Positions 1 to 15,629 of a DNA stretch of 21,090 bases are shown here, in pieces. Numbering within the stretch: the stretch's first letter is position 1; each line of letters opens with the position of its first letter. The stretch is from a virus: IMG/VR virus record IMGVR_UViG_3300005737_000047, positions 1 through 21,090 of that record; one strand, given 5' to 3'. The notes below the pieces were generated by a model. It saw only the letters and a list, made by a program, of their open reading frames with translations, searched no databases and had not been told where the DNA came from. The position numbers and the translations under genes were made by a program.

Positions 1-578
1 TACGCCCGCAATGAAACTCAAAACAGCGGCCTGAAGTCCGGTTCTAAAACCCACTAAAAATGGGATGATTACCGTTCGACCTAAAATACGGATATTCGAG
101 ACTAATTCACGCTTCAAGTCGGTATCGACCTACCGCTTAGATATATATTTTGTAAAATTATTGAACCTCTATTGGTTCATTTATAATTTCGCTTCTACCT
201 TAAAATTTTGCTATTAAAAGCGTGATTCTGCGGTTCCAATTATGTTTATTTAGATTCACTACGGGGGAGACGGGATCGCGCGATTGCTCTTACCAATTGA
301 AACGCTGAAAACCGCTAGTCCGAGTTCATACCATTCCCGCATTTGTCCAAATCTTTAATTAAGAGCACTTTCTGTTCAAGAAAATCCTCCGCTGTAGGAG
401 GCTATAGCACGCTCATTAGCTGTTCTATTGAACGCAATCCGGTATTCCGTTTGCGCTTCTAGTATGCTTCCTGCATGATCTTGTTGAGTTCTCATCATTA
501 GCTTGATTATGAGAAACTAAAGGTATCCGCGCATCTGCGTGGGTGTTTTGTATTTCCGCTCCCGGGCACTCTCGGCCC
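1..578. other. AT-rich non-coding region left of the head operon
   Basis: No gene can be supported here. Stops are frequent in all frames and base composition is clearly more AT-rich than the operon to the right. Frame 1 is open only from base 1 to a TAA at 55-57, which could be the last 18 codons of a gene outside the window, but nothing in it is recognisable. Two small inverted repeats are visible: CCTCC/GGAGG at 386-390 and 397-401, and TTCTCAT/ATGAGAA at 489-495 and 509-515. The second lies just before the composition changes to GC-rich and could be an operator. The genes expected upstream of a Mu-type I gene (terminase, portal, F-type head protein) are absent. Confidence 0.6.
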
Positions 579-1703
579 ATGAGCAAACGACCCCACCAAT
601 CTGAGATCTGCGCCGCCGACCCTGTCGCCCTGACGGCTGAGATGGTTGGCGAAATTACCTCCGGTATCTGGATCAGATTGATCCCCTCCGGGACCTTCCA
701 GGCCCGCGATGGCCGGGGGCCGTTCGATACTGGCGATCAGACCGCCATGCAGGCCATCATCGCCCACACCAAGTCCTATCTCGGCGGCACGGACATGATG
801 ATTGATTACGATCATCAGTCAGCCTTCGGCGCCATTCCAGGCGTTGGCGGCACGGCAAAGGCCGCAGGCTGGGTCAAGGACTTCGACGCCCGGTCCGACG
901 GCATCTATGGCCGTGTCGAATGGACCGCTGCCGCCAGGGCCGCGATCGAGGCGTCCGAGTATCGCTACATCTCACCGCTGTTCACCCGCGACAAGGCTGG
1001 CAAGGTCACCGCTCTGCGCAATGCCGCGCTGTTGAACATGCCCGCGATGGATCTTGAAGCCATTGCCGCCCGCGCGCTTTCTCTGACAACCAAAGGACCT
1101 GACATGGATGAGATCCTTGAAGCCCTCGGCCTTGCCAAGGGCGCCGGGGAAGGGGAGGCGCTTGCCTCGATCACTTCCCTGATGACCGGCCTGTCCGCAA
1201 TTGCGGTGGCCGCCGGGCTGGACAAGACCGCAGATGCGACTGCCGTTGCCGCCTCGGTGGCAGATCTGGCCAATGCTGCGAAGGCATCAAAAGCTGATCC
1301 GGACAAGCCCGATCCGGCGAAATTCGTGCCGATCGAACAGGTCACGGCCCTGCAGGCAGACCTCAAATTATTGAGTGACACGATCCAGGCCGACAAGGCG
1401 GAAGAGCTTGTCGCAGCTGCCATCGAAGCGGGGAAGCTGGCTCCGGCGCTGAAAGACTGGGGGCTGGAGCTTGCCAAGGCCGATCTCAAGCAGTTCGAGG
1501 CCTTCACCGCCAATGCGCCGGCACTGACCGGTGCCCAGCTCGGCAGTCAGAAAAAGTCTGACGCGGGTGTGGCCGGGATGAGTAACCGCGACCCGGTTGA
1601 GGTTGCCGCTGCCGCGACCGCCCATCAGGCGCAACTTGCCGCCAGCGGCCAGATCATCGACATCGCCGCTGCCGTGCAGGCTGTTCAGGAGCAAAAGCCA
1701 TGA
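579..1703 (+). CDS. Mu I-like prohead protease with C-terminal scaffold region
   Basis: This is a 374-residue protein resembling the Mu-like prophage I protein, the prohead protease that matures the capsid. The N-terminal half carries features typical of the family: WIRLIPSGTF, the D-Y-D-H-Q motif (MIDYDHQS), a GWV segment, EYRYISPLF, and ALLNMPAMD near the end of the protease domain. The C-terminal half, from about residue 176, is Ala/Lys/Asp-rich and helical, as expected of a scaffold. ATG 579 was chosen because the family usually has only a short leader before the WIRL segment. A GTG at 543 in the same frame is possible, and neither start has a good ribosome binding site. It overlaps the next gene by four bases (ATGA). 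It is the first gene after an AT-rich gap, so its original upstream neighbours may have been lost. Recognition of the family is strong; the exact start is uncertain. Confidence 0.85.
   Translation: MSKRPHQSEICAADPVALTAEMVGEITSGIWIRLIPSGTFQARDGRGPFDTGDQTAMQAIIAHTKSYLGGTDMMIDYDHQSAFGAIPGVGGTAKAAGWVKDFDARSDGIYGRVEWTAAARAAIEASEYRYISPLFTRDKAGKVTALRNAALLNMPAMDLEAIAARALSLTTKGPDMDEILEALGLAKGAGEGEALASITSLMTGLSAIAVAAGLDKTADATAVAASVADLANAAKASKADPDKPDPAKFVPIEQVTALQADLKLLSDTIQADKAEELVAAAIEAGKLAPALKDWGLELAKADLKQFEAFTANAPALTGAQLGSQKKSDAGVAGMSNRDPVEVAAAATAHQAQLAASGQIIDIAAAVQAVQEQKP
1104..1703 (+). CDS. Nested in-frame scaffold protein (Mu Z-like)
   Basis: An internal ATG at 1104 lies in the same frame as the protease gene, 175 codons after its start. 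AAAGGA at 1092-1097 precedes it with a 6-nt spacer, a better ribosome binding site than that of the full-length gene. Initiation here would give a 199-residue protein beginning MDEILEALG, consisting only of the Ala-rich helical tail. Mu makes its scaffold Z from an in-frame start inside I, and lambda makes Nu3 inside C, so the arrangement is known in this gene family. What is seen is the ATG, its phase and the Shine-Dalgarno sequence; use of the start is inferred. Confidence 0.6.
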   Translation: MDEILEALGLAKGAGEGEALASITSLMTGLSAIAVAAGLDKTADATAVAASVADLANAAKASKADPDKPDPAKFVPIEQVTALQADLKLLSDTIQADKAEELVAAAIEAGKLAPALKDWGLELAKADLKQFEAFTANAPALTGAQLGSQKKSDAGVAGMSNRDPVEVAAAATAHQAQLAASGQIIDIAAAVQAVQEQKP

Positions 1704-2083
1704 TCCCGACTTTCATCCGGTCCCACGAGACGACTGCCGAGGTCGCTCCATTCCGCATCGTGGCGTTTTCCGATGTCGCCAGTTCCCGGAAGGCGGCAAC
1801 GGCTGCTGCCGATACCGATCCGCTGATTGGTGTCTCCGACAAAATGGGCGCCCCCCTTGGCGGCATGGTGGATGTCATCCGTGCAGGATTGGGTGCCGTC
1901 CAGCTCGGCGCGGCGGTCTCTGCCGGCGATCCGCTGACCTCGGATGCCAACGGCAAGGCGATTGCCTGTGTCCCAGCCGCCGGCGAGACACGCCGCATAA
2001 TCGGTTTTGCGGAAGAGCCCGGCGTTGCCGACGACATCATCGATGCCTGGATCATGCCCGGCCTCTTCCACGAACCAGCCTGA
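1700..2083 (+). CDS. DUF2190-type capsid decoration / head fibre protein
   Basis: This is a 127-residue protein between the protease and the major capsid gene, starting at an ATGA overlap with the protease. The sequence is Ala/Gly/Ile-rich and beta-like, with repeated short stretches such as GVSDKMGAPLGG, AGDPLTSDANGKA and IIGFAEEPG. These fit the DUF2190 family of small head proteins that trimerise on the capsid surface or stabilise it. The position (protease, small head protein, capsid) is the same as in many B3-like and lambda-like phages. The family call is from sequence feel and position, so the precise role (decoration versus fibre) is inferred. Confidence 0.7.
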   Translation: MIPTFIRSHETTAEVAPFRIVAFSDVASSRKAATAAADTDPLIGVSDKMGAPLGGMVDVIRAGLGAVQLGAAVSAGDPLTSDANGKAIACVPAAGETRRIIGFAEEPGVADDIIDAWIMPGLFHEPA

Positions 2084-2143
2084 CTTGAACTGGCCTGATC
2101 CGGTTCTCCCGACGCTTTCGCGACATAACATTCAGAGGACGCC

Positions 2144-3124
2144 ATGGCTCCCAATCGCCCATTTACCGTCGATCCGATCCTGACAGCGATCGCCATCGGC
2201 TACCGCAATGACCGCTCTTCGCTGATTGCCGACGAGGTTCTGCCCCGAACACCTGTTGGGGCGGAGAAGTTCGCCTGGACCGAATATCCGCTGGATGAAG
2301 CCTTCAATATTCCGGACGGCAAGGTGGGCCGGCGGGGCCGGGTGCAGCAGCTGGAATTCGGCGGCACGGAAAAGACCGACGAGGTCGAGGACTACGGCTT
2401 CGAGTCGCCCATTCCCTATTCGGACATCGATGCGGCCTCGGAAGCCCGCAGCCGCAATGTTTCCAAGTTCGATCCGGAAGGCCATGCGGCGATGATGCTG
2501 ACCGACACTTTGCTCAATGTGCGCGAAGTGCGGGTGGCCTCCATGGTGCACAATCTGAACAGCTATTCGGCGAACCGTCGGATCACCCTGGCCGGTACGG
2601 ACCAGTTCAGCGACTACTCCAGCTCCGACCCGATCGGGATCCTGAAGACCGGTATCGAGTCGACCCTGATCTTCCAACCGAACACAATGGTTATGGGCCG
2701 GTCGGTCTGGTCGAAACTGTCCTCGCATCCAAAGATCGTCAATGCGGTGAAGGGCAATCTGACCGAGGAGGGCATTGTCTCCCGGCAGCAGTTCCTGGAT
2801 CTATTTTCCGGCGAAGGCATCTCCCGGATCCTGGTCGGCGACGCCTGGTACAACACGGCCAAGCCTGGCCAGAGCGCCAATCTGACCCGCGCCTGGGGCA
2901 ATCATATTTCCATGATCCACCTTAACCCGATCGCCAATCCCCAGGGGGGCGGCATCACCTTCGGCTTTACCGCCCAATATGGCACCAAGTTCTCTGGACG
3001 CATCGAGGATCGGGACGTTGGCCTGCAGGGCGGTGTGCGGATCCGGACCGGCGAGCGCGTGAAAGAACTGATCGTTGCCAAGGACGTCGGTTATTTCATT
3101 CAGAACGCCGTGGCGGGGGGCTGA
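2144..3124 (+). CDS. Phage major capsid protein
   Basis: A 326-residue protein read as the major head subunit. It begins NRPFTVDPILTAIAIGYRND, a usual opening for this capsid group, and contains VLPRTPVGAEKFAWTEYP, an acidic loop around EKTDEVEDYGFESP, and TNTMVMG-like text (FQPNTMVMGRSVW) in the middle. The C-terminus has FGFTAQYGTKFSGRIEDRDV followed by VRIRTGERVKELIVAKDVG, as in HK97-fold capsids of Mu/B3-like prophages. It follows the decoration gene after 60 bases, the largest gap in the head block; a moderate AGAGG ribosome binding site lies before the ATG. It is complete, with no frame disruption. It is probably the product processed with the scaffold by the upstream protease. Confidence 0.85.
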   Translation: MAPNRPFTVDPILTAIAIGYRNDRSSLIADEVLPRTPVGAEKFAWTEYPLDEAFNIPDGKVGRRGRVQQLEFGGTEKTDEVEDYGFESPIPYSDIDAASEARSRNVSKFDPEGHAAMMLTDTLLNVREVRVASMVHNLNSYSANRRITLAGTDQFSDYSSSDPIGILKTGIESTLIFQPNTMVMGRSVWSKLSSHPKIVNAVKGNLTEEGIVSRQQFLDLFSGEGISRILVGDAWYNTAKPGQSANLTRAWGNHISMIHLNPIANPQGGGITFGFTAQYGTKFSGRIEDRDVGLQGGVRIRTGERVKELIVAKDVGYFIQNAVAGG

Positions 3125-3128
3125 TCAG

Positions 3129-3464
3129 ATGGCCCCACGCAAAGCCAAACCGCAAACCGCACCGAAGGCTGCTGAGGTTGCCAAAGTCGTTACCGGTGAA
3201 CCGGCTGTCACGCCACCCGCGACAACTGCCCAAACTGAACCAGTAGCGAAGGATGAGAAGCCCAAGGTTGCTCTTGCTTCAAAACCAGATTCCCCGAGCC
3301 CCTCAAAGGTTACGGCAGACGCAAAGACTGATGCACTTGTCGAGGGTGTGATCGTCTCCCCGCTGCGCTGCAATGGCAAACGCTATGGGATTGGGGATCC
3401 GATTTCGCTGCCTGCGGGTGAACTGGCCGCGCTGCAAAAGGCCGGTGTTATCGAACCCGCCTGA
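3129..3464 (+). CDS. Small head-region protein at the gp35 position
   Basis: A 111-residue protein starting four bases after the capsid stop. Residues 1 to about 75 are rich in Lys, Pro, Ala, Thr and Val (APRKAKPQTAPKAAEV and similar) and are probably disordered. The last 35 residues form a compact motif, VSPLRCNGKRYGIGDPISLP followed by AGELAALQKAGVIEPA. Similar tails occur in small proteins at the gp35 position of Mu-like prophages, where a short beta-barrel-like segment precedes a final helix. ATG 3129 was preferred to the upstream alternative at 3075, which would run inside the capsid gene. No function is known to me; a head-completion or connector-accessory role is only suggested by position. 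Confidence 0.6.
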   Translation: MAPRKAKPQTAPKAAEVAKVVTGEPAVTPPATTAQTEPVAKDEKPKVALASKPDSPSPSKVTADAKTDALVEGVIVSPLRCNGKRYGIGDPISLPAGELAALQKAGVIEPA

Positions 3465-3495
3465 ACCGCCAGAAGCATCCGTGGAAGGAGTGTCC

Positions 3496-3927
3496 GTGGC
3501 CTACGCAACACAGCAGGATCTTATTGACCGGTTTGGCGAAGATGAGCTGATCCAGCTCACGGACGAGACGAACCTGCCGGCGACCACGATCAATGCGGCC
3601 AAGGTTGCCGCCCATATCTCGGACGCGGAAAATCTGGCCGATAGCTATCTGGCCAAGCTCTATCGCCTGCCGCTCGATCCCGTTCCTGCCGTCCTGACGC
3701 GGATCATTTGCGAGATCTCCCGGTATTTCCTGCATGGCCGGCGCACGGACAAGGACGATCCCGTCACTCGGGACTACGGCCAAGCGATTGCCTGGCTCAA
3801 GGATGTCGCGAAGGGCACCGTCCAGCTTGAGGCGGAAGGGGCGGCGTCCGATCAGAGCGGCGAAGGCCAGATCCAGGTGTCCGCACCGGACCGGATCTTT
3901 TCCCGCGACAGCATGTCCGGATTTTAG
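3496..3927 (+). CDS. DUF1320 / Mu gp36-like head-tail connector protein
   Basis: This 143-residue protein matches the gp36-like family (DUF1320) in length and pattern: AYATQQDLIDRFGEDEL at the N-terminus, a central helix with ISDAENLADSYLAKLYRLPL, then VPAVLTRIICEISRYFLHG and an acidic DDPVTRDYGQAIAWLKDVAKG. Members act as adaptor-like head-tail connectors. The GTG at 3496 was chosen because AAGGAG at 3485-3490 stands five bases before it and the product then begins exactly where relatives begin. A second GTG at 3490 overlaps that ribosome binding site and is less likely. The next gene starts 11 bases downstream. Confidence 0.8.
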   Translation: MAYATQQDLIDRFGEDELIQLTDETNLPATTINAAKVAAHISDAENLADSYLAKLYRLPLDPVPAVLTRIICEISRYFLHGRRTDKDDPVTRDYGQAIAWLKDVAKGTVQLEAEGAASDQSGEGQIQVSAPDRIFSRDSMSGF

Positions 3928-3938
3928 GGGAGGGACCA

Positions 3939-4547
3939 ATGACCGGGTCTACGCCCTTTCTCACCATAGAAGACGCCGAGATCAATGCGGCCCTGAGCCG
4001 TGTCGCGGATGCGGGCGGTGAGACCGGACCGATGATGGTTGAGATCCAGGCGGCAATGCTGTTTTCCGTGCAGCGCCGGTTTGAGACAGAGACCTCGCCG
4101 GATGGAACGCTCTGGCAACTCCATGCACCGCGCACTGCGAAAGCCCGCGCGAAACGCAAGACGCATGGTCGCTCAGGGGGTAATGGTCCACTTACCCCGA
4201 AACTGCTGCGCGACACGAACCGGCTTTACAAGTCGATCAGCGGCGAAGCCACGGCAACAGAGGCCGCTGTCGGCACGAACCTGGTCTATGCCGGTATTCA
4301 CCAGAGCGGCGGCACGGTCATCCAATATCCGCAATCCCGCAAAGTGAAGTTCCGCGAGGTTGGAACGCAGACGCGGTTCGCGAAGAAGTCCCACAAGCGC
4401 GCGTTCGAGAAGCCCGTCACATTCGGCGAACGTTCGTTCGTCATTCCGGCGCGGCCTTATCTCGGGTTTTCCGAGGAAGACCGGGCAACGATCCTGGCGA
4501 TTGCGGAAACACACTACAGCGCTATCGCGGATGGAGGCCCTTCATGA
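3939..4547 (+). CDS. Phage virion morphogenesis protein (Mu gpG-like)
   Basis: A 202-residue protein of the virion morphogenesis (tail completion) family. Hallmarks are QAAMLFSVQRRFETETSPDG near residue 40, the P.G..W..L motif (SPDGTLWQLH), a basic segment with KARAKRKT, then LLRDTNRLYKSIS, VGTNLVYAGIHQSGG and the late FVIPARPYLGFSEED. The last two are the conserved 'yAaiHQfG' and 'PaRPfLG' signatures of the family. It overlaps the next gene by ATGA. In Mu this gene (G) lies before I, but here it follows the gp36-like gene, as in other B3-like and lambdoid mosaics. A role in joining tails to filled heads is known for the family. Confidence 0.85.
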   Translation: MTGSTPFLTIEDAEINAALSRVADAGGETGPMMVEIQAAMLFSVQRRFETETSPDGTLWQLHAPRTAKARAKRKTHGRSGGNGPLTPKLLRDTNRLYKSISGEATATEAAVGTNLVYAGIHQSGGTVIQYPQSRKVKFREVGTQTRFAKKSHKRAFEKPVTFGERSFVIPARPYLGFSEEDRATILAIAETHYSAIADGGPS

Positions 4548-4972
4548 GCCTCGTGTGCGATATAATCGCCCGTTTAAAAGAGCCTCAAACCGTCTTTAAA
4601 GCGGTTTGCGGCGCGGCGGAATTCTCGGTGATCGAGAAGCGCCGGCTTGCTGCGCCAGCCGCCTATGTGATGGTGGCAGATGAGGCCAGTGGCGAAAACG
4701 AGCGTGCCACCGGACGCATTCTGCAACGGCTCGAGACCGACATCGCCGTGGTCATCGTCACTGACAATCTGAGCGATGCCCGGATGGGGCGGGCAATGGA
4801 CGACATCGAGGCCCTGAAGGCCTTTGTCCGCTCGCGCCTGATTGGCTTTGAACCGTCCGATGCCGCCGAGCCTGTCACCCACATTTCCGGAGACCTGATC
4901 AAGGCCCATGGCGGTGCGGTCTGGTTTGAGGATCGCTATTCCGTCCCGACCTATCTGGAGGAACAGCCATGA
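4544..4972 (+). CDS. Tail terminator-like protein (Mu gp37 position)
   Basis: A 142-residue protein beginning MSLVCDIIARLKEPQ. It has a predicted helix, a beta-rich centre (APAAYVMVADEASGENERAT and TDIAVVIVTDNLSDARM), then ALKAFVRSRLIGFEPSDAAE and a final GGAVWFEDRYSVPTYL. The pattern of strands separated by a helix and the closing 'W.D.F...' strand match gp37/tail terminator-like proteins, which cap the tail tube at the head-proximal end. Start and stop overlap both neighbours by four bases, so translation is coupled. The call rests on position and overall pattern more than on a diagnostic motif. Confidence 0.7.
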   Translation: MSLVCDIIARLKEPQTVFKAVCGAAEFSVIEKRRLAAPAAYVMVADEASGENERATGRILQRLETDIAVVIVTDNLSDARMGRAMDDIEALKAFVRSRLIGFEPSDAAEPVTHISGDLIKAHGGAVWFEDRYSVPTYLEEQP

Positions 4973-5097
4973 CTGACGCACCGAGACTAGGCGGTCGATA
5001 CATCCGCGATCCCAAGACGGGTGAGCGGGTGAGGGAAGATGAGGCGGCCAAAACGAACAAGCCACCCAAGGCCAAACCCAAAGCGGAGAAGGACTAG
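4969..5097 (+). CDS. 42-residue phage protein at the Mu gp38 position
   Basis: A very short gene with ATG at 4969 overlapping the terminator stop (ATGA) and TAG at 5095-5097, three bases before the tail tube start. The product reads RYIRDPKTGERVREDEA in its centre and ends in a Lys/Pro/Ala-rich tail. Mu-like phages carry a similarly small gene (gp38, DUF2635) here, and the 'RDP.TG' phrase is compatible with that family, but the rest is too short to decide. Tight coupling on both sides argues that it is translated. Function unknown. Confidence 0.6.
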   Translation: MTDAPRLGGRYIRDPKTGERVREDEAAKTNKPPKAKPKAEKD

Positions 5098-5100
5098 CTT

Positions 5101-6021
5101 ATGCGCAAGTTCAAGAAGCTCGCCTGTCTCGCGAAGATCGAGACGGTCTATGGCACGGACAGTGTTCCCCTTGCCGCCAATGCGATCCAGCTGTCGGATG
5201 TGACGCTGACACCGCTGGCGGGCGAAGACGTTTCGCGCGACCTACTGTTGCCCCATCTGGGTCACCAGGGCATCGAGCTGACCAGCAATTACATGCAGCT
5301 GGAGTTCGCCGTGGAGTGTGCCGGCGCGGGCGCTGCCGGAGACGTGCCCGGCTATGGGGTTCTGCTGCGGGCCTGCGGTCTGTCCGAGACCATCGATCCG
5401 GGAACTTCCGTTGTTTATGAGCCGGTGTCGGACGGCGAGGAAGCGGTCTCGATCTATTACCACCACGACGGCGTCCGTCATGTTGCCCTCGGGTGCCGCG
5501 GAACCTTCCAGGTGGAGTTCGCACCACGCCAGATCCCGCGTTTCAGGTTCAGCATCATGGGACTGCTCGGCACGGTCACCGATCAGGCTCTGCCGGCCGC
5601 GGATCTGTCAGCCTTCCAGAAGCCGGTGCTTGTCTCCAAGGCACAGACCAGCCTGTCACTCCATGGGGCCGATCGGATTGCGGAAAGCATCTCCATTGAT
5701 CTGGGTGTCCAGGTCGAACCTCGCTTTCTGATCGGTGATGAACGCATGCAGCTGACCGATCGGCAGAGCACTGGAACCGCGGTGGTCGAGGCCAAGTCCA
5801 TGGCGACGATCAACTGGTTCGACGTGGCAACGGCCAAGACACTGGATGCGCTTCAGGTGGTTCATGGAACCGCGGCCGGTCACATCGTTCAGGTGGATGC
5901 GCCGAAGGTGCAGATCGGGCGACCAAGCCAAGGCCAGAGCCAGAACATACTCAACTATTCCCTGCCGCTGATGTTCGTGCCCAACGCGGGCGACGACGAG
6001 CTGGTGATCACCGTGAAGTAG
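5101..6021 (+). CDS. Phage tail tube protein (siphovirus type)
   Basis: A 306-residue protein read as the major tail tube subunit of B3/D3112-like siphoviruses. It opens with a Lys-rich RKFKKLACLAKIETVYGTD, where 'K.E..YGTD' is typical of tail tube proteins, followed by AIQLSDVTLTPLAGEDVSRD. It then alternates predicted beta strands, including LEFAVECAGAG, GTFQVEF and ISIDLGVQVEPRFLIGDER, and ends with YSLPLMFVPNAGDDELVITV. There is no tail sheath gene next to it, so a non-contractile tail is expected, unlike Mu itself. Its place immediately before the two chaperone reading frames is the standard siphovirus order. Confidence 0.8.
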   Translation: MRKFKKLACLAKIETVYGTDSVPLAANAIQLSDVTLTPLAGEDVSRDLLLPHLGHQGIELTSNYMQLEFAVECAGAGAAGDVPGYGVLLRACGLSETIDPGTSVVYEPVSDGEEAVSIYYHHDGVRHVALGCRGTFQVEFAPRQIPRFRFSIMGLLGTVTDQALPAADLSAFQKPVLVSKAQTSLSLHGADRIAESISIDLGVQVEPRFLIGDERMQLTDRQSTGTAVVEAKSMATINWFDVATAKTLDALQVVHGTAAGHIVQVDAPKVQIGRPSQGQSQNILNYSLPLMFVPNAGDDELVITVK

Positions 6022-6030
6022 GAGGCATTG

Positions 6031-6393
6031 ATGCAATTCCGCCTGTCAGACACATACGCCTTCTGGTGGCCTGTGACGGTCAAAATGCCGGATCCTGAGA
6101 AGCCTGGGAAGGTCCTGGATCAGAGTTTCGAAGCTCAGTTTTTATTGGTCGGCAGTGAGCGTCTGGTTGCTATGGATGGCGAGAACGGTGACCAGCATGC
6201 GGTCCTGAAGGAGGTCTGGACCGGCTGGCGCGGCGTCGAGGACGACGACGGATCCGAAGCCGCGTTCTCGGATGAGACCCGCGATCGCTGTCTCGATTAT
6301 GCCCATGTGCGGCTGGCGCTTTATACCGCCTATCTGGAAGCCAGCAGTGGCCGCGCTGCTCAAAACGGTCAGGCACCAAAGGTAAAAAACTGA
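6031..6393 (+). CDS. Tail assembly chaperone, upstream frame (lambda G-like)
   Basis: A 120-residue protein between tail tube and tape measure, where siphoviruses encode the tail assembly chaperone. It opens MQFRLSDTYAFWWPVTVKMP and contains AQFLLVGSERL, WTGWRGVEDDDGSEAAFSDE and LYTAYLEASSGRAAQNG. ATG 6031 is preferred over TTG 6028 because AGGAGG lies at 6020-6025, five bases before it. The last codons run into a slippery A AAA AAC heptamer directly before the TGA, so a fraction of ribosomes probably shift to the next frame. The product would bind the tape measure and recruit tube subunits. The sequence alone is weakly diagnostic; the role comes from position and the frameshift signal. Confidence 0.75.
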   Translation: MQFRLSDTYAFWWPVTVKMPDPEKPGKVLDQSFEAQFLLVGSERLVAMDGENGDQHAVLKEVWTGWRGVEDDDGSEAAFSDETRDRCLDYAHVRLALYTAYLEASSGRAAQNGQAPKVKN

Positions 6394-6432
6394 TGGCGGC
6401 CGCGCGGGCCTGGGCCTTCGCCCGGCGCGGCC
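6384..6432 (+). other. Predicted programmed -1 frameshift site with stimulatory stem-loop
   Basis: The heptamer A AAA AAC (6384-6390) is in the correct phase for X XXY YYZ slippage relative to the upstream chaperone frame (GTA AAA AAC TGA). After a -1 shift the next codon is CTG (6390-6392), then ATG GCG, exactly the frame of the following gene. After a 7-nt spacer (6391-6397), GGCCGCGCGGGC at 6398-6409 can pair with GCCCGGCGCGGCC at 6420-6432. This gives about 12 GC-rich pairs with one bulged G and a 10-nt loop. Spacer and stem are as expected of a frameshift stimulator. Frameshifting between two tail chaperone frames is conserved in dsDNA phages. Confidence 0.75.
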
Positions 6433-6764
6433 TCATGGATCCAGAAGTCACCCTGGAGCTAGACCGGGAGACAGCCTCGGACTTTGAGGCTCTGGGCGTC
6501 TCCATTCCGGATGCCCAGGTTTCAGAAGCGGAATGTTTTGATGTCTGGCGCTGCAACTGGCGCAGCGTGACCGCTTTTCTGTCCCTGGAGACCCAGTGGC
6601 GGGTGGCAGCCGGCCCGGCGGGGTTTGCGTTTCTGGGGCTCGATTACACCGCTGCCAAGGCCGCTTTGTGCGGCCGCAGCCGGCGCGCCTGGCAGCGCCT
6701 GCTTGCTGATCTCCAGATCATGGAGCGTGCGGCCCTGCCGATCCTGAATGAGGAGCGCCCATGA
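6393..6764 (+). CDS. DUF1799-like tail assembly protein, downstream frame (lambda T-like)
   Basis: A 123-residue frame lying -1 relative to the upstream chaperone, which it overlaps at TGATG. It contains CFDVWRCNWRSVTAFLSLET followed by QWRV, GPAGF and a GLDYTAAKA segment, the 'W..N..s...F..l.TQWR....G..GLDY' pattern of DUF1799. This family regularly sits between the chaperone and tape measure of B3-like prophages. It may be made on its own from ATG 6393 by coupling, or as the C-terminal part of a roughly 244-residue frameshift fusion. In lambda only the fusion form (GT) is made, and it bridges the tape measure and tube subunits. It overlaps the tape measure gene by four bases. Confidence 0.75.
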   Translation: MAAARAWAFARRGLMDPEVTLELDRETASDFEALGVSIPDAQVSEAECFDVWRCNWRSVTAFLSLETQWRVAAGPAGFAFLGLDYTAAKAALCGRSRRAWQRLLADLQIMERAALPILNEERP

Positions 6765-8986
6765 CGCTTCAGTTGAAGATGCTGGCCAGCCTCGATGCCA
6801 GTGGCGTCGAACGCGGGGCGCAGGAGGCACAGAGCCATCTGCGGCTTGTCGGCAGCGAAGCAACGAAGACGGGTGCACGGCTTTCTCAGGCACTTGATGC
6901 GCAGTTCGGTATCGGCGGCGCACCTGCCGCGGACCGGGCCCGCGACATCGAGGCCTACGGCGCACAGTTGGATGATCTGCGAGCCAGGTTCAATCCGCTG
7001 TTCGCCCTGCAACGCCGTTATGAGGCAGGCGTCAAGGAGATCGCCGATGCTCATAAGGTTGGCGCGATCAGTGCCAAGGAGGCTGCGAACGCGACAGCAC
7101 AGGCCACCGGCATCTACAAGGCCCAACGGGCAGCGCTCGCAGGATCATCTCAGGTTCTGAGCAAGTTCGGATCTTCCACAAAGCTGGCTGCCCATGAGCT
7201 CAACATCCTTGGCCAGCAGTTTGCCGATGCAGGTGTCCAGATCGCCTCCGGACAATCACTGTTTACTGCCATCCTGCAACAGGGCAGCCAGGTCCAGTTT
7301 CTGCTCGGATCCAAAGGGGTCAATACGATCGGCGGATCGCTCGGCATTCTCAAACAAGGCCTGATCGGTTTTCTGAACCCGATCAATCTTGCGCTGGTCG
7401 GACTGGCTGGTGGGGCAGCTGCCGCCTCCGCGCTTTATCAGGCAGTCGCCAACGACGACACGGCCGAGGACGCTCTGGAGAACCAGAACGAACTGATCCG
7501 GCAGATGGCGGAACGCTACAAAGACGTGAAGGTAGCCCTTGATCAGCTGGATCGTTCGCCGACTCTGACCAACATTGCCCTTGATACGGATGATCTGGAG
7601 CAGCAGCGCGATCTCCTCCAATCCCTGATCATCGAGATCGAGGAGAGTGTTCAAAAGAGCCTGCGCCTTGAAGCCAACGCGCTGACGGCCCTGGCCGAGC
7701 CACTGACACAGGACGCAGCCCTGTTTCGCGCGTTCCAGGATGAGCTCCGGGCAACGGCCGATCAGTTCATCAACGCAGAGGCAGGTGCCGATCAGCTCAT
7801 CGCCCGGCTGATCGAACTCGCCCGGACCGCACCGGACACGGAAAGCGAACAAGCAATCCGGGAGATCATCAAGGAGGCGAGGCAAGCCGACACCGGCTTG
7901 TTCGATCTGGTCAAGCGGCTGAACGAGGTGGAAGCCTCCCTGCGCGGTGTGGATGCTGCCGCAAGTGCCCTCGGATCGATCTCGACAGCGGCCAATAGTC
8001 GGGTCGGATCGGCCTTCGGGATCTTTGAGGAAGAGGCAGCAAGAAAACGGCTGGCGGCTCAACTCAGACCACAGGCAACAAAGAAATCGGAATCCGATCG
8101 CCGGGTCGAGCGAACGCAGGACCTGTTGCGCAGTCAGGATGAGCAACTGGCTCGGCTGCGGCTGGAGACCCGTTTGGTTGGCAGCACGGATGCCGCGCGT
8201 GCCAAGGCCCTCGCAACACTCGAAGCAGAGATCCAGATCCGCGATCTTGGCATCAACGCGCTTGGCACCGAAGCCGAAGCCATTCGGGCCAATGCCCTGG
8301 CGATTGCTGACAGCACCGGCACGCTTGAGCAGAACCAACAGGCCTGGGACACGGTTCGCTCAGCCGGGACAAGTGCGATCGACACGCTGGTGGATCGGCT
8401 GGCGAGCGGTGATCTCTCCGGGGCCATCCAGGCAGTCACCTCTGATCTCTCCCAGATGGTCCTGATGCTGGGTGCAGCCAATCCTTTGAAGAACGCGCTC
8501 TTCGGCAGCAACCTTCCGACCCTGTCGTCCGCCGGTGGACTGCTGTCTGGCCTCTTGGGTGGTGCGGGCGTTTCCAGCGCGATTTCCGCGGCGACCTTGG
8601 GTCTCTACGACATTGGCGGGGCAACGCCTGCCGGTAATGACAATGACATCGCCGGGTTTGTCCATAAGAACGAATATGTCTTCGATGCCAAGTCGACACG
8701 GGCCATCGGCGTGCCAGTGCTGGAGGCTATGCGCAAGGGTTCTCTTAGGGGCTATCAGTCCGGAGGCCTGGTGACCACGGACCCTATGAGCCTGCCCGGG
8801 TTTGTCGGTCAGGCGGGGCTCGGGAACGCTCAAAATGCCCGGCCAAATGCCGTGGCCGCCGGGGAAGATCGCGGCAATGTCACCATCAACATCACGACGC
8901 CGGATGCCCAGAGCTTCCGAGCCGCCCGCACCCAGATCGCCGGTGAGTTCGCCCGTCTGACCGCACGTGGGCAGCGGGGGATGTAA
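6761..8986 (+). CDS. Tail tape measure protein
   Basis: A 741-residue, Ala/Gln-rich, largely helical protein that sets tail length. Residues 1-190 are predicted coiled coil. A hydrophobic glycine-rich stretch lies at about 194-226 (GFLNPINLALVGLAGGAAAA), as in tape measures that insert into the host membrane. Long helical segments follow to about residue 540. Near residues 630-670 the typical C-terminal signature appears: GFVHKNEYVFDAKSTRAIG followed by LEAMRKGSLRGYQSGGLV. At roughly 1.5 angstroms per residue, a value known for tape measures, the tail would be near 110 nm, which is an inference. It overlaps its neighbours (ATGA and TAATG). It is far longer than the GTA tape measure, pointing to a true siphovirus-sized tail. 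Confidence 0.88.
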   Translation: MTLQLKMLASLDASGVERGAQEAQSHLRLVGSEATKTGARLSQALDAQFGIGGAPAADRARDIEAYGAQLDDLRARFNPLFALQRRYEAGVKEIADAHKVGAISAKEAANATAQATGIYKAQRAALAGSSQVLSKFGSSTKLAAHELNILGQQFADAGVQIASGQSLFTAILQQGSQVQFLLGSKGVNTIGGSLGILKQGLIGFLNPINLALVGLAGGAAAASALYQAVANDDTAEDALENQNELIRQMAERYKDVKVALDQLDRSPTLTNIALDTDDLEQQRDLLQSLIIEIEESVQKSLRLEANALTALAEPLTQDAALFRAFQDELRATADQFINAEAGADQLIARLIELARTAPDTESEQAIREIIKEARQADTGLFDLVKRLNEVEASLRGVDAAASALGSISTAANSRVGSAFGIFEEEAARKRLAAQLRPQATKKSESDRRVERTQDLLRSQDEQLARLRLETRLVGSTDAARAKALATLEAEIQIRDLGINALGTEAEAIRANALAIADSTGTLEQNQQAWDTVRSAGTSAIDTLVDRLASGDLSGAIQAVTSDLSQMVLMLGAANPLKNALFGSNLPTLSSAGGLLSGLLGGAGVSSAISAATLGLYDIGGATPAGNDNDIAGFVHKNEYVFDAKSTRAIGVPVLEAMRKGSLRGYQSGGLVTTDPMSLPGFVGQAGLGNAQNARPNAVAAGEDRGNVTINITTPDAQSFRAARTQIAGEFARLTARGQRGM

Positions 8987-9612
8987 TGGCTGATTTTGAT
9001 GAGGTGCAATTCCCGGTCATCGTGGCGCGCGGGGCAAGCGGTGGGCCCGAGCGGCGCACGGAGATTGTCGAACTGGCCTCCGGCCATGAGGAGCGCAACA
9101 CGCCCTGGGCAGACAGCCGGCGCAGCTATGATGTTGGCTCCGGCATTCGGAGCGCCGATGATCTGGCGGATGTGGTTACCTTCTTTGAGGCCCGGTCCAG
9201 CCGCCTGCGGGGCTTCCGCTTCAAGGACTGGTCGGACTTCAAGTCCTGCAAACCGTCTGAGGCGATCTCCTATGAGGATCAGTTCCTGGGGGCAGCTGAC
9301 GGCGTGACCACAAGTTTCCAGCTGGTGAAGGCCTATAGCTCGGGCGGTCGCACCTGGACACGGGAGATCTCCAAACCGGTGGCTGGAACCACCGTGATCG
9401 CTGTTGGCGGGGCGGCTCAACCCTCCGGTTGGTTGGTCGATACCACCAGCGGGCTGATCACCTTCGACGTCGCCCCGGCTTCCGGCAATGTCACTGCCGG
9501 TTTTGAGTTCGACGTGCCATGCCGCTTCGACACGGATCAGCTGCAGACCACTTTGCGCATTCATCGCCTCGGCGAGATCCGCGCCATTCCAATTGTGGAG
9601 GTGCGCGTATGA
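8986..9612 (+). CDS. DUF2460 distal tail protein (GTA ORFg12-like)
   Basis: A 208-residue protein of the DUF2460 family, known in the Rhodobacter GTA as the distal tail subunit joining tube and tip. It starts MADFDEVQFPVIVARGASGG, and the characteristic block is RNTPWADSRRSYDVGSGIRS, then VVTFFEARSSRLRGFRFKDW. Later it has TTSFQLVKAYSSGGRTWTRE and the terminal TTLRIHRLGEIRAIPIVEV, which relatives share almost word for word. The start codon overlaps the tape measure stop (TAATG) and its end overlaps the next gene (ATGA). The four tail-tip genes that follow are in the same order as in GTA clusters. Confidence 0.93.
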   Translation: MADFDEVQFPVIVARGASGGPERRTEIVELASGHEERNTPWADSRRSYDVGSGIRSADDLADVVTFFEARSSRLRGFRFKDWSDFKSCKPSEAISYEDQFLGAADGVTTSFQLVKAYSSGGRTWTREISKPVAGTTVIAVGGAAQPSGWLVDTTSGLITFDVAPASGNVTAGFEFDVPCRFDTDQLQTTLRIHRLGEIRAIPIVEVRV

Positions 9613-10505
9613 AGACGGTTCCCACCGCCATGCAGGCCGCTCTCGATGGCCGGGCAACCACCCACGCCAGATGCTGGAAGGTGGAACGGCGCGACGGCAC
9701 CCTGTTCGGCTTTACCGATCACGACCGAGCCCTGACCATCGCCGGTCTTTCCTATGAGGCCGCGACCGGCTTCACCGCCACATCCATCGAATCCAGCCTT
9801 GGGCTGGCGGTCGACAATCTGGACGTCGAAGGAGCGCTGTCCTCGGCCTCGATCACGGAAGACGACATCGCCCGCGGGTTTTGGGACGATGCGGTGATCG
9901 AGGTCTGGCTCGTTGACTGGACCGACACGGACAATCGGCTGCTCCTGCGCAAAGGCAACATTGGCGAGATCTCCCGAGGCCCGACTGCCTTCATGGCCGA
10001 ACTGCGCGGGTTGGCGCACCGGCTTGGCCAGACCACGGGCCGTCAGTTCGACCGGACCTGCTCCTGGGACCTGGGCGACGGCAAATGCAAGGTCGCTTTG
10101 GCCGGCTGGATCTCGACTGGCGTGGTTGTGACGGTCTTTGATTTCCGCAGCTTCACCGCCTCCGGCCTGGGGGGCAAAGACGACGGGTTGTTTCAGCGCG
10201 GACTTGTGACCTGGACCAGCGGTGCAAATAGCGGCCTTCAAATGGAGGTTAAACGGCATTCAAAGCCAAATCCCGACATAGATGGAACGGTGACCCTTGA
10301 ACTGGTGCTGCCCATGGCCGATGCCATCGAGGCCGGAGATGACTTCAGCATCCAGGCCGGTTGCGACAAGACCTGGGCAACCTGTCAGTCCCGGTTCGGC
10401 AACGGCGACAACTTCGGCGGCTTTCCCCATATGCCCGGCAACGAGATCGTCATTGGCTATGCAGACAAGGACGATCTGAACGATGGCGGGAGCCTGTTCA
10501 CATGA
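9609..10505 (+). CDS. DUF2163 tail hub protein with likely Fe-S site (GTA ORFg13-like)
   Basis: A 298-residue protein of the DUF2163 family with the BR0599-like C-terminal domain, the hub of the GTA tail tip. The N-terminal domain has RCWKVERRDGTLFGFTDHDR and the 'VDNLDVEGAL' segment. The C-terminal domain has four Cys: C151 and C160 (CSWDLGDGKC) and C252 and C259 (CDKTWATC), followed by FGNGDNFGGFPHMPGNE, a strong family signature. A C-x8-C ... C-x6-C arrangement recalls the [4Fe-4S] ligands of lambda tail-tip protein L; metal binding here is inferred. ATG 9609 overlaps the previous stop by four bases and fits the usual MKTVP opening. Confidence 0.92.
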   Translation: MKTVPTAMQAALDGRATTHARCWKVERRDGTLFGFTDHDRALTIAGLSYEAATGFTATSIESSLGLAVDNLDVEGALSSASITEDDIARGFWDDAVIEVWLVDWTDTDNRLLLRKGNIGEISRGPTAFMAELRGLAHRLGQTTGRQFDRTCSWDLGDGKCKVALAGWISTGVVVTVFDFRSFTASGLGGKDDGLFQRGLVTWTSGANSGLQMEVKRHSKPNPDIDGTVTLELVLPMADAIEAGDDFSIQAGCDKTWATCQSRFGNGDNFGGFPHMPGNEIVIGYADKDDLNDGGSLFT

Positions 10506-10954
10506 GCAATCCGCTCGGCAGCCAGATTGTTGCCGCCGCCCGAAGCTGGATCGGCACGCCCTATGTCCATCAGGCAGCAACGAAGGACGCCGGCTGCGAT
10601 TGTTTGGGTCTCGTGCGCGGTGTCTGGCGGGAGGTCTTGGGAACCGAGCCGGAGACGCCTCCACCCTATACGCGGGACTGGGCCGAACGGTCAGGACGGG
10701 AGACCTTGAAGGAAGCAGCGTGCCGGCACATGGAGGCGGTGCCGGTCGACCAGGCAGGTCCTGGTGACGTCTTGCTGTTCGCCTTCAAGGCGGGCCTACC
10801 CGCCAAACACTGCGCGGTCCTGACCACTCCGATCGATGGTCCTGCTCCTCGGATCATCCATGCACATGAGCACCTGCCAGTGGCTGAAGTCGCACTGGTG
10901 CCGGGATGGCGGCGGAAGATCCGCTTTGCCTTCCGCTTTCCGGGAGCGTGCTGA
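10502..10954 (+). CDS. NlpC/P60 tail-tip cell-wall peptidase (GTA ORFg14-like)
   Basis: A 150-residue protein of the NlpC/P60 cysteine peptidase family, which cuts peptidoglycan peptides to help DNA entry. The opening VAAARSWIGTPYVHQA is typical. The nucleophile is Cys34 in the D-C-x-G box (GCDCLGLVRGVW), and the first catalytic His is His103 in PAKHCAVL; a second polar position is likely in IIHAHE near residue 120. The helper motif PGDVLLF lies between. All catalytic elements are present, so it should be active. It sits between hub and host-specificity genes as in GTAs, coupled by ATGA and TGATG overlaps. No signal peptide is seen, in keeping with a virion component. Confidence 0.93.
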   Translation: MSNPLGSQIVAAARSWIGTPYVHQAATKDAGCDCLGLVRGVWREVLGTEPETPPPYTRDWAERSGRETLKEAACRHMEAVPVDQAGPGDVLLFAFKAGLPAKHCAVLTTPIDGPAPRIIHAHEHLPVAEVALVPGWRRKIRFAFRFPGAC

Positions 10955-13900
10955 TGGCGACACTTGTCCTCGGCGCAGCTGCGACAGCCTTCTCCGGCGC
11001 CATCGGCGCGGGCTCATTTACCTCGGCTTTGATCTCAGGCGCGGCGACCGTTGCCGGAGCCTATGCGGATAATCTTCTGGCCTCGGCCCTGTCACCGACG
11101 CAGCGCCAGTCCGTGGAAGGCCCAAAGATTTCTGATCTGCGTCTGCAGACATCGACCGAAGGGGCTGCTCTGCCGGACGTCTTTGGCCGGGTGCGGATTG
11201 CCGGTCAGGTGATCTGGGCGACACGGCTCAGGATGGAAGTCTCCACCTCAACAGAGACAGTTGGTGGCAAGGGGCTGGGCGGCGGCCAGAAGGTCAGCAC
11301 GACGACTTATCAGTATTTTGCCAGTTTCGCGGTCGGTCTCTCCGAAGGACCGATCATCGGCATTGGCCGGGTCTGGGCCGATGGCAAGCTGCTCGACCTG
11401 ACCGGGATCACCTACCGCGTCCATGTCGGGTCTGAAGATCAGCAGCCTGATCCCTTGATCGAGACAAAGGAAGGCAGCGCGCCCGCCTATCGCGGCACGG
11501 CCTATGTGGTCTTCGAGGACCTGTCGCTGGAGGGCTTCGGCAACCGCATTCCCCAGCTGGAGTTCGAGGTCTTCAGACGTGTCGGCCAATCCGTCGAAGA
11601 CGAGATCCAGGGCATGGTGGTGATCCCCGGCGCCGGCGAGTGGGTCTATGCAACAGAACCCGTGCGCAAGAACGATGCAGAGACCGAAGGCGCGACCACA
11701 CCTGAGAACGTCAACAACCAGATCGGCGGCACGGACTGGTCGGTGGCGATCGACGATCTGGAACGGACCTGTCCGAACGCCAAATCGGTTCTGCTTGTGG
11801 TCGCCTGGTTCGGTACAGACCTGAGGTGTGGCTCTTGCCAGATCCGGCCCGGGGTCGAGTTCGGCGACGAGAAGACCAACGAGCCCCTGAGCTGGTCCGT
11901 CCACGGCGAGACAAGAGACACAGCCTATGTGGTCTCGCGAGACGCAGGCGATGATGACCGGCCAGCCTATGGCGGCACACCCTCGGACCAGTCGGTGGTT
12001 CAGGCCATTCGGGATCTTAGGGCACGCGGCATCGATGTGGTGCTTTATCCCTTCATCCTGATGGATATTCCAGATGGCAACGGCTTGCCGGATCCTTATG
12101 GCGAAGCCGAGCAGGCAGTTCTGCCCTGGCGAGGGCGCATCACCTGCCATCCGGCAACCGGACAGCCAGGCACCGTCGACAAGACAGCTGCAGCTGGAAC
12201 GCAGGTCGATGCGCTGTTCGGGTCTGTCACTGCGAACCAGATCAGCGTCTCGATCAATTCCGATAGTGGCGCCGTCAGCACCTCCTACAGCGGACCGTCC
12301 GAATGGTCGCTCAGGCGCATGGTGCTGCACTACGCAAAGCTCTGCGCGGCACTGAACGCGGAAGAGGCAGGCACCGTCAGCGGCTTTGTCATGGCCTCGG
12401 AACTGCGCGGTCTGACGACGATCCGCAGTTCGGCCTCAGGTTTTCCGGCAGTCGCCCAACTCGTGGCGCTGGCTGGAGATTGCCGATCGGTATTGGGCAG
12501 TTCCGTGTCGCTGACCTATGCCGCCGACTGGTCAGAATATCGCGGCTTCGATGCTGGCGATGGCTCGGGCGATTTCTTCTTCCATCTGGATCCGCTCTGG
12601 GCCAGCTCTGACATCGATGCGGTGGCGATCGACAATTACATGAAGCTCTCCGACTGGAGGGACGGCACCACGCATCTGGATGCACTGGACGGCTGGTCCT
12701 CGATCCATGATCCGGAGTATCTCAAGAGCAATGTCGAAGGCGGCGAGGATTACGACTGGTACTATGCCAGCGAGGCCGATCGGACCAATCAGATCAGGAC
12801 GCCGATCACCGATGGATCTGGCAAGCCGTGGGTCTACCGGGCGAAGGACTTCCGGAACTGGTGGCTGAACCAGCACCATGATCGGCCGGGCGGTGTCGAA
12901 AGCGGATCACCAACATCCTGGGTGCCACAATCCAAGCCGATCTGGTTCACCGAATACGGCTTCCCATCCGTCGACAAGGCCACCAACCAGCCGAACGTCT
13001 TTGTCGATCCAAAGTCCTCGGAAAGCGCCTGGCCGTATTTCTCGAACCGGCAGCGCTCGGACGCAATCCAGCGGCGGGGCATCGAGACCGTGCTGCGCTA
13101 CTGGGATTCGGAGGAAGGCAACAATCCGGTTTCCGGCATCTATGGCGACCGCATGCTGGATCTCTCCCACTCCTTCCTCTGGACCTGGGACGCGCGGCCT
13201 TATCCGGCCTGGCCGTATCAATCGGAGATCTGGGGCGACGGCGACAACTGGCCGCTTGGGCATTGGGTCCAGGGCAAGTTCGGCGCGGTCGACCTGGCCG
13301 AGCTGGTGGCTTACATCTGCGCATCCGTTGGCTTTACAGACATCGATGTTTCGCAGCTTCAGGGCGTCGTCACCGGCTGGCAGCGGGCGTCGATCACGAC
13401 ACCGCGGGCCCAGCTGCAGACACTGGCACAGCTTTACAGGTTCGACGCTGTCGAGAGCGAAGGCCTGATCCGCTTTGTCCCGCGGGGCGGAGCGACAAAG
13501 GCCACCATCGACGAACAGGATCTGGCAGCGCCCGATCGCAAGCAGGCCGACTGGTCGATGACACGAGCCCAGGAGACGGACCTGCCGATCCGGGCATCAC
13601 TGTCTTACTTCGATGCGGAGAGCGACTATCGCCAGACCAGCTCCAATGCCGGACGGCTGACGGGGTCTTCGGAACGGATCGAAAGCGTGTCCGCACCTGC
13701 CGTGATCGAGACGGCGGAAGCTGAAGGCATGGTCGAGGCGTGGCTGCTGGAACGTTGGGGCGGGCGGGAACAAGCGAGCTTTGCTTTGCCTCCCTCGATG
13801 ATCCGGCTGGATCCGACCGACACGGTGGCGCTTGAGGCAGGCGGCAGGTCAAGGGATCTGCGCCTTTCACGCATCATCGATGCAGGGGCCCGGCAATGTG

Positions 13901-14904
13901 AGGCGGTCGCCGTCGAACGGTCGATCTATTCGATCCAGCGCGGCACATCGCGGCCCGTGTCGCCCGATACCGTGCCGAGCTATGGACCGGCGGTGTTGGA
14001 GGTTCTGGATCTGCCGGTGATCGAGGAAACGCAGGTTGAGCATCGGCCCTGGCTTGCCGCTACGGCCAGTCCCTGGGCGGGTGTTCGCGTACTTGAGGGA
14101 AGCCGCGCAGTCGGCAGTGTGATTGCACCGGCAACGCTCGGGGTGACGACAACGGATCTGGCGAGTGGCACACCGTATCGCTTTGACCGAGCAAACGCCC
14201 TGACGGTGAAGCTCGCCTATGGCACGCTGGCGTCTGTCTCCGAGGATGAGCTTCTTGAAGGCACAAACAACGCCCTGGCGATCCAGAACGCGGACGGTGA
14301 CTGGGAGATCCTGCAATTCGCCACCGCCGACCTGGTCGCGGCGCAAACCTGGCAGCTGTCCGGACTCCTGCGCGGTCGGCGCGGGACGGAACATGCCATG
14401 CGGGATCCGGTTGTTGCTGGCGCACGCGTCGTGTTGCTCGATGGCGCCCTGACCCAGGCCGATGTGCCTTTGTCAGATCGGGGCATTGAGCGCGCCTGGA
14501 GCTATGGGCCGGCACCTGCAGCCTCGACGGACAGCAGCTTTAGAGACCGTTCAAACACCTTTGAAGCGGTGGCTCTAAAGCCGTTTGCGCCGGCGCATCT
14601 GGCAGGAAGCAGGAATCCAACGGGGGATCTGGCCATCTCCTGGGTTCGGAGGGCGCGCAAGAATGGAAGTTGGCAGGATGGCGCCGATGTTCCGCTCATA
14701 GAGGTTCAGGAGGCCTATGAGCTCGAGGTACTCTCGGGCGCCACCGTTGTCCGGACAGCCGTCAATCTAACTGCTCCGTCTTGGACCTATGTGGTCGCCG
14801 ACCAGATCGCCGACTTCGGGTCAGTCCAGTCCGCTCTCACCATCCGCGTCTATCAGATCTCCGACACCGTTGGCCGTGGAACTCCCAAGGAGGAAACCCT
14901 ATGA
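10954..14904 (+). CDS. GTA TIM-barrel host-specificity tail protein (ORFg15-like)
   Basis: A 1316-residue tail-tip protein, about the length of the GTA megatron protein (roughly 1300). It starts with a Gly/Ala-rich hydrophobic stretch (LVLGAAATAFSGAIGAGSF), as relatives do, then the VFGRVRIAGQVIWA and YFASFAVGLSEGPI segments. The TIM-barrel glycosidase-like domain spans roughly residues 410-740. Visible landmarks are VAIDNYMKLSDWRDG with Asp560 and the IWFTEYGFPSVDKATNQPN motif with Glu667, the usual acidic pair. A Phage-tail_3-like region follows near 790-960. ATG 10954 was chosen for the TGATG overlap and the GGGAG ribosome binding site at 10942-10946. In GTAs it forms the central spike and binds the cell surface; sugar cleavage is suspected but unproven. 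Confidence 0.92.
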   Translation: MATLVLGAAATAFSGAIGAGSFTSALISGAATVAGAYADNLLASALSPTQRQSVEGPKISDLRLQTSTEGAALPDVFGRVRIAGQVIWATRLRMEVSTSTETVGGKGLGGGQKVSTTTYQYFASFAVGLSEGPIIGIGRVWADGKLLDLTGITYRVHVGSEDQQPDPLIETKEGSAPAYRGTAYVVFEDLSLEGFGNRIPQLEFEVFRRVGQSVEDEIQGMVVIPGAGEWVYATEPVRKNDAETEGATTPENVNNQIGGTDWSVAIDDLERTCPNAKSVLLVVAWFGTDLRCGSCQIRPGVEFGDEKTNEPLSWSVHGETRDTAYVVSRDAGDDDRPAYGGTPSDQSVVQAIRDLRARGIDVVLYPFILMDIPDGNGLPDPYGEAEQAVLPWRGRITCHPATGQPGTVDKTAAAGTQVDALFGSVTANQISVSINSDSGAVSTSYSGPSEWSLRRMVLHYAKLCAALNAEEAGTVSGFVMASELRGLTTIRSSASGFPAVAQLVALAGDCRSVLGSSVSLTYAADWSEYRGFDAGDGSGDFFFHLDPLWASSDIDAVAIDNYMKLSDWRDGTTHLDALDGWSSIHDPEYLKSNVEGGEDYDWYYASEADRTNQIRTPITDGSGKPWVYRAKDFRNWWLNQHHDRPGGVESGSPTSWVPQSKPIWFTEYGFPSVDKATNQPNVFVDPKSSESAWPYFSNRQRSDAIQRRGIETVLRYWDSEEGNNPVSGIYGDRMLDLSHSFLWTWDARPYPAWPYQSEIWGDGDNWPLGHWVQGKFGAVDLAELVAYICASVGFTDIDVSQLQGVVTGWQRASITTPRAQLQTLAQLYRFDAVESEGLIRFVPRGGATKATIDEQDLAAPDRKQADWSMTRAQETDLPIRASLSYFDAESDYRQTSSNAGRLTGSSERIESVSAPAVIETAEAEGMVEAWLLERWGGREQASFALPPSMIRLDPTDTVALEAGGRSRDLRLSRIIDAGARQCEAVAVERSIYSIQRGTSRPVSPDTVPSYGPAVLEVLDLPVIEETQVEHRPWLAATASPWAGVRVLEGSRAVGSVIAPATLGVTTTDLASGTPYRFDRANALTVKLAYGTLASVSEDELLEGTNNALAIQNADGDWEILQFATADLVAAQTWQLSGLLRGRRGTEHAMRDPVVAGARVVLLDGALTQADVPLSDRGIERAWSYGPAPAASTDSSFRDRSNTFEAVALKPFAPAHLAGSRNPTGDLAISWVRRARKNGSWQDGADVPLIEVQEAYELEVLSGATVVRTAVNLTAPSWTYVVADQIADFGSVQSALTIRVYQISDTVGRGTPKEETL

Positions 14905-15629
14905 CGTCGACCGCACGCCTGCAGCTGCCGCTGATTGCCGCGAGCCAGTCCCAGAAGGAAGTCACCCACAACGAGGCGCTGACAAGGCTCGACATCCTGG
15001 CGCATCTGACGATCCTAGACCGGGACCTGAGCGTGCCGCCAGGCGCGCCGGGTGAGGGGGATGCCTATCTGGTTGCGAGCGGCGCAATGGGAGAGTGGGT
15101 CGGGCAGGACAGCAAGATCGCGACCTATGTGGACGATGCCTGGGCCTTCTATGTGCCCTACATCGGACTTCTGGCCTTCGTCGCCGATGAAGGCACACTC
15201 GCTGTATGTACCTCTATTGGTTGGCGGGATTACGGCGCGCTGCTTTCAGAGGTCGCTGTCGTGTCGCAAACCGCCTCTGGGGCGCAAAGCCGGATCTGCA
15301 CGGTGGAGGAAGAACTCAACGGATTGAGCGGAGCCAGTGTCGACACATCCATCGTCATTCCAAACCGCGCGGTTGTCTGGTGCGTGTCGACCAGGACATC
15401 GACTGCCATCACCGGGGCAGCGTCCTATGACTGCGGGATTGTCGGGGAGACATCCAAGTTCGGTGGCTCGCTAGGGATCGCTGAAGGCTCGACCAATGCC
15501 GGAGTGATCGGGCCGCAGGCGTTTTATTCGGACACGGCGCTGCGCTTGAGCGCGAATGGCGGGAGCTTTACTGCAGGCGCGGTGAAGGTGGTGTTGCATT
15601 ACATGCTGCCGGTCGTGCCGGGAGCGTGA
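14901..15629 (+). CDS. DUF2793 tail fibre-like protein
   Basis: A 242-residue protein whose first 100 residues are a clear DUF2793 domain: ARLQLPLIAASQSQKEVTHN, EALTRLDILAHLTI, PPGAPGEGDAYLVAS and DSKIATYVDDAWAFYVP. The C-terminal part is beta-rich and Gly/Ser/Ala-rich (YDCGIVGETSKFGGSLGIAE and so on), a common make-up for receptor-binding tips. DUF2793 proteins occur at the end of GTA-type tail modules and at least one GTA fibre belongs to this family. An AAGGAGG ribosome binding site (14887-14893) stands seven bases before the ATG, and it overlaps the previous gene by four bases. It is the last gene of the late operon; a convergent gene ends eight bases away and no terminator is evident. 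Confidence 0.85.
   Translation: MTSTARLQLPLIAASQSQKEVTHNEALTRLDILAHLTILDRDLSVPPGAPGEGDAYLVASGAMGEWVGQDSKIATYVDDAWAFYVPYIGLLAFVADEGTLAVCTSIGWRDYGALLSEVAVVSQTASGAQSRICTVEEELNGLSGASVDTSIVIPNRAVVWCVSTRTSTAITGAASYDCGIVGETSKFGGSLGIAEGSTNAGVIGPQAFYSDTALRLSANGGSFTAGAVKVVLHYMLPVVPGA

Follow-up and report, generated by a model that had tools for sequence, protein, structure and literature searches.

The -1 frameshift of the lambda G/GT tail assembly chaperone was reportedly described by Xu, Hendrix and Duda in 2004, and the lambda slippery heptamer is G_GGA_AAG. In lambda, the short product attaches to the tape measure protein, the fusion uses its T-like extension to recruit tail tube subunits, and the efficiency of the slip sets the ratio between the two products (PMC5009743). 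Slippery heptamers have also been published from other tailed phages. Acinetobacter phage Loki has AAAAAAC directly before the stop of gp12, the first tail chaperone of the gp12/gp13 pair (PMC5313236), Burkholderia phage KL1 has GGGAAAC directly before the TGA of gp18, likewise the first chaperone of gp18/gp19 (PMC3483164), and among the tape-measure chaperones of Caulobacter phages AAAAAAC is found in phiCbK and GGGAAAC in Colossus (PMC3556154).

The locus described here was found in a window of 21,090 nucleotides, which is the whole stretch of DNA analysed (IMG/VR record IMGVR_UViG_3300005737_000047). It consists of a chaperone-like frame, A, followed by a DUF1799 frame, B. It differs from lambda in the heptamer, in the stop codon, which abuts the heptamer, and in the second frame being DUF1799. 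Genes 49/50 of Rhodobacter phage RcapMu (JN190960) comprise homologous A and DUF1799 frames, with GGGAAAC abutting TGA, and the GenBank record of this phage carries the annotation 'potential -1 frameshift' at 28272, i.e., at the homologous place. RcapMu differs from the window in having GGGAAAC and not AAAAAAC and in lacking an ATG at the junction, and its gene 50 is annotated from a start that lies beyond the conserved junction. Loki and KL1 belong to other phage lineages and are likened to the window by the heptamer and the adjacent stop. phiCbK and Colossus have the same two heptamers and an alphaproteobacterial host, but they are large siphophages of another lineage, and the likeness lies in the heptamer. 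This kind of system is well known in tailed phages and is not new. The initial annotation had regarded the signal as being of unusual quality, an opinion which does not stand beside the heptamers published for Loki, KL1, phiCbK and Colossus and the frameshift remark in the RcapMu record. A full-text literature search for DUF1799 together with frameshifting found no paper within the limited collection searched, and the family-wide conservation of the heptamer with DUF1799 may not yet have been written down.

Anatomy of the junction and its surroundings

The window is a mosaic from 543 to 15629, combining head genes of Mu-like type (Mu I protease PF10123, Gp36 PF07030, virion morphogenesis PF05069) with tail-tip genes of GTA-like type (DUF2460, phiJL001 Gp84, GTA_TIM, Rcc01698 C-terminal). 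Further right, past the tail genes, at 16299-19188, lies a three-gene ABC three-component (ABC-3C) cassette composed of CTD10 (PF20275), MC6 (PF20293) and a DUF2326/AAA protein. It matches the PADLOC candidate PDC-M68A/B at 1.5e-14 and 1.8e-122, and is likely a defence cargo module of the prophage. Around the junction the gene order is tail tube, A, B, tape measure, with B in the -1 frame to A. The individual features, all on the plus strand, are as follows.

5101..6021, +, tail tube protein, the upstream neighbour (Pfam PF18906 Phage_tube_2, 1.2e-14)
6031..6393, +, frame A, 120 aa, probable lambda gpG-like tail assembly chaperone (PHROG 569 (tail), 6.7e-17)
6384..6390, +, slippery heptamer A_AAA_AAC in the sequence, with zero-frame codons AAA (6385-6387) and AAC (6388-6390)
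6390..6764, +, frame B as read after the shift, Leu plus a 123 aa DUF1799 domain, the predicted C-terminal part of the A-B fusion, lambda T-like
6391..6393, +, TGA stop of frame A, abutting the heptamer
6393..6395, +, in-frame ATG overlapping the stop of A (TGATG), a possible, unconserved separate start for B
6398..6432, +, predicted 12-bp GC-rich stem-loop with one bulge, likely the 3' stimulator
6761..8986, +, downstream gene for the tape measure protein, with which A and A-B presumably interact (Pfam PF06791 TMP_2, 2e-12; PHROG 19487, 1.3e-53)

The last two sense codons of frame A are the AAA AAC of the heptamer, and AAC directly adjoins TGA. From 6276 onwards the -1 frame meets no stop until 6762-6764, and in translation of the window a slip back by one base gives an A-B fusion of 244 residues, in which ...PKVKN is followed by LMAAARAWA at the junction. 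The initial annotation had correctly given the exact zero-frame phase and a -1 frame running without a stop into the DUF1799-like frame, with a fusion of about 244 residues. It was imprecise in placing the heptamer one codon before the stop. The 7-nt spacer and the GC-rich stem-loop of about 12 bp, which it had also described, were recovered by folding at 6398-6432, with the 5' arm at 6398-6409, the loop at 6410-6419, the 3' arm at 6420-6432 and a predicted folding energy of about -24.8 kcal/mol.

Relatives of A matched PHROG 313 'Tail assembly chaperone' in 30 of 56 cases and Pfam Phage_TAC_4 in 4 of 56. The AlphaFold model of A (pLDDT 87) had as its top structural match the HK97 tail assembly chaperone 2ob9; the match was weak (Z 3.2, rmsd 5.6 over 77 residues), and the likeness of the modelled fold to this chaperone is suggestive and no more. 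B was assigned to DUF1799 (Pfam PF08809, 4.6e-12; 46.4 bits against a gathering score of 26) and matched PHROG 680 (tail) at 3.6e-20. Its AlphaFold model (mean pLDDT 92) has a helix from residue 2 and gave no informative match against PDB structures. Sequence searches of the PDB with the A and B profiles yielded nothing relevant, and Foldseek with both models returned nothing with E below 0.001. The structure jobs were run on sets that left out three GenBank phage rows. PHROG 569, 680 and 17368, which are matched by 6031-6764, are labelled as 'tail length tape measure protein'. This label looks wrong, since the matches are to the chaperone pair adjoining the tape measure gene.

Conservation of the heptamer and the start of frame B

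Relatives were gathered from IMG/VR, GTDB genomes and GenBank phages, and distinct loci encoding both A and B were counted. Closer sequences were used in scanning the collections; broad alignments were without conserved stretches. B lay in the -1 frame in 113 of 113 distinct loci, and the same 113 loci all had an in-phase heptamer at the end of A, being A_AAA_AAC in 22 and G_GGA_AAC in 91. The stop of A abutted the heptamer in 111 loci and came one codon later in the remaining two, both with AAAAAAC (L082 near 2486-2498 and L169 near 1443-1455), showing that an adjacent stop is usual but not obligatory. The non-redundant set, with less than 75% nucleotide identity, comprised 89 loci, 70 of them with GGGAAAC and 19 with AAAAAAC. 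Elsewhere in A, an in-phase X_XXY_YYZ of any kind occurred at 26 of 10797 positions (0.24%), and A_AAA_AAC or G_GGA_AAC at none of these 10797. Once the relatives are compared, the heptamer is far beyond chance. One of the patterns used in searching, L[TMK]xAARAWA, extends across the junction and might have favoured junction-bearing loci; scans with patterns away from the junction (ETQWRVA and N-terminal motifs of A) gave the same result. The signal was also present in more distant DUF1799 phages, i.e., those of Pseudomonas, Xanthomonas, Synechococcus, Rhodovulum and Rhodobacter.

A programmed frameshift joining two tail chaperone frames had been proposed from the window, with a comparison of heptamer and phase among relatives as the way to check it and a gene pair without a conserved slippery site as the evidence that would count against it. 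Both heptamer and phase were kept in all of the 113 loci, the gene pair was never found without the heptamer among them, and the proposal is borne out by the conservation of heptamer, phase and stop position. We regard 6384-6432 as almost certainly a signal for programmed -1 ribosomal frameshifting of the lambda G/GT type, which fuses A to the DUF1799 frame.

The conserved sequence of B, L-x-x-A-A-R-A-W-A, starts at the junction Leu, and no ATG, GTG or TTG was found in the B frame from -10 to +3 codons around the junction in 85 of the 89 non-redundant loci. Because the conserved part starts at the junction and no start codon is found there, the whole conserved B would in these 85 loci be made only via the frameshift. 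An ATG at the position of the window's ATG was seen in 3 of the 89. The codon after TGA or TAA in the -1 frame must be ANN, so that ATG is expected by chance in about 1/16. In GenBank records the start of the DUF1799 gene is annotated at least 60 nt downstream of the junction in RcapMu, RcWaterboi and Pelagibaca P1, whereby the conserved N-terminal helix is lost, and the RC1 and RS1 annotations begin this gene at a CTG overlapping the stop, the Leu codon read after the shift. Annotated coordinates of the DUF1799 gene are 2935-3222 in L016, 1935-2222 in L017, 1908-2207 in L018, and 1384-1728 in both L179 and L180.

An independent gene B, translated only from ATG 6393 by coupled re-initiation at TGATG and with the heptamer incidental, would agree with the overlap itself, with the Shine-Dalgarno-like AAAGG about 10 nt upstream of this ATG in the window sequence, and with the ATG being retained in the close relatives L001 and L025. 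We nevertheless hold it to be very improbable, since conserved B begins at the junction also in the 85 loci without a start codon near it, the frequency of ATG needs no more than chance, and the heptamer is universal in the relatives. The same TGATG and Shine-Dalgarno-like sequence could allow both routes in the window's clade, so that some free B would be made beside the frameshift fusion. This would add to the frameshift reading, and we consider it somewhat unlikely, since the ATG is not conserved in the family, and B is both conserved and predicted to form its first helix right from the junction onwards, as for a fusion partner. The ATG of the window is best seen as an unconserved coincidence, where weak re-initiation would be possible. 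Thus, of the suggestion that B has its own ATG and may exist both separate and fused, the ATG is indeed present in the window, while 85 of 89 relatives are without a start codon around the junction; separate plus fused B would at best be peculiar to the small clade of the window.

The six A in a row at 6384-6389 could also be imagined to produce a fused message by transcriptional instead of ribosomal slippage. As 70 of the 89 relatives have GGGAAAC, with three A only, at the homologous place, poly-A transcriptional slippage cannot be the mechanism that the family has in common; this candidate was rejected, and is hardly credible for the window either. A constraint on the protein, namely on the C-terminal Gly/Lys-Asn of A and with no frameshifting, would account for A ending with GN or KN before the stop in nearly all relatives. 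It would not account for the choice of codons, since every GGN AAY, whatever base precedes it, encodes Gly-Asn, while GGA AAC after G, or AAA AAC after A, is invariant; moreover, B never lies in a frame other than -1 and mostly lacks a start. We assign practically no weight to this explanation.

Downstream structure and the second slippery codon

The stem of the window taken alone is within chance, with z -0.98 against dinucleotide shuffles and p 0.05-0.09 against synonymous-codon shuffles, which is not significant alone; only 1.1% of the plus-strand 60-mers of the window fold equally stably. Across the 89 loci, the first 60 nt after the heptamer folded more stably than synonymous versions made from the same genes, at a mean z of -1.23, and the first 51 nt gave a mean z of -1.33 +/- 0.12 against synonymous shuffles, compared with mostly -0.5 to +0.3 in stretches at least 6 codons downstream or in A. 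The deepest average minimum free energy across these loci falls exactly at the stretch after the heptamer. RNAalifold on 70 sequences gave no consensus helix beyond two pairs, the stem pairs of the window were kept in 57% of cells, and covariation was marginal. Comparison of the stem among relatives, as earlier suggested, thus gave excess stability at the family level and no fixed conserved helix, and we speak of a conserved stem only in the sense of excess stability, since there is no helix common to the relatives. To us this pattern suggests that a stable stem is selected for and that its register drifts. A Shine-Dalgarno-like stimulator 12-15 nt before the heptamer was considered as well, and is not claimed because the duplex energy was only about 2 sd better than in synonymous shuffles; a purine motif at this distance occurs in up to 46% of relatives.

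The second slippery codon was AAC, and never AAG, in all 89 non-redundant loci and in the distant Pseudomonas, Xanthomonas and Synechococcus phages. In E. coli AAG is a far better second slippery codon than AAC (PMC4066793, PMC5009743), and AAC in this position is mammalian-like and known in haloarchaeal viruses (PMC5009743). The poorer slipperiness of AAC in E. coli was counted as a point against the frameshift reading. Three alphaproteobacterial genomes holding relatives encode tRNA-Lys with both UUU and CUU anticodons, and the presence of both tRNA-Lys(UUU) and tRNA-Lys(CUU) could make AAG less slippery in those alphaproteobacteria; it does not by itself explain AAC in phages of other hosts. 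We tentatively suggest that these phages might follow not the E. coli rule but a distinct slippery rule, eukaryote-like and with the stop next to the site, which would suit a low efficiency or hosts that have tRNA-Lys(CUU) as a separate species, although we think this rather doubtful.

Proposed tail chaperone system and its meaning for the family

Under the frameshift reading, most ribosomes translating A would terminate at TGA 6391, yielding the 120-aa product as a presumed chaperone. A minority would pause at the 3' stem-loop, whose stimulating role we infer together with the slippage and its efficiency, while their tRNAs stand on AAA and AAC, and would then slip back one base. These ribosomes would bypass the stop and read on through the DUF1799 frame, giving an A-B fusion of 244 aa. 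If the system works as in lambda, A would bind the tape measure protein, the B part of the fusion may recruit tail tube subunits, and the ratio of A to A-B, set by the slip efficiency, would govern tail assembly.

Most annotations give DUF1799 proteins as free hypothetical proteins whose start lies downstream of the junction, as in RcapMu, RcWaterboi and Pelagibaca P1. The A-DUF1799 fusion defines what is likely the true second product of a large, mainly alphaproteobacterial phage tail family, and the natural slippery sites with AAC at the end, approximately 90 and diverged, are useful for testing slippage outside E. coli.
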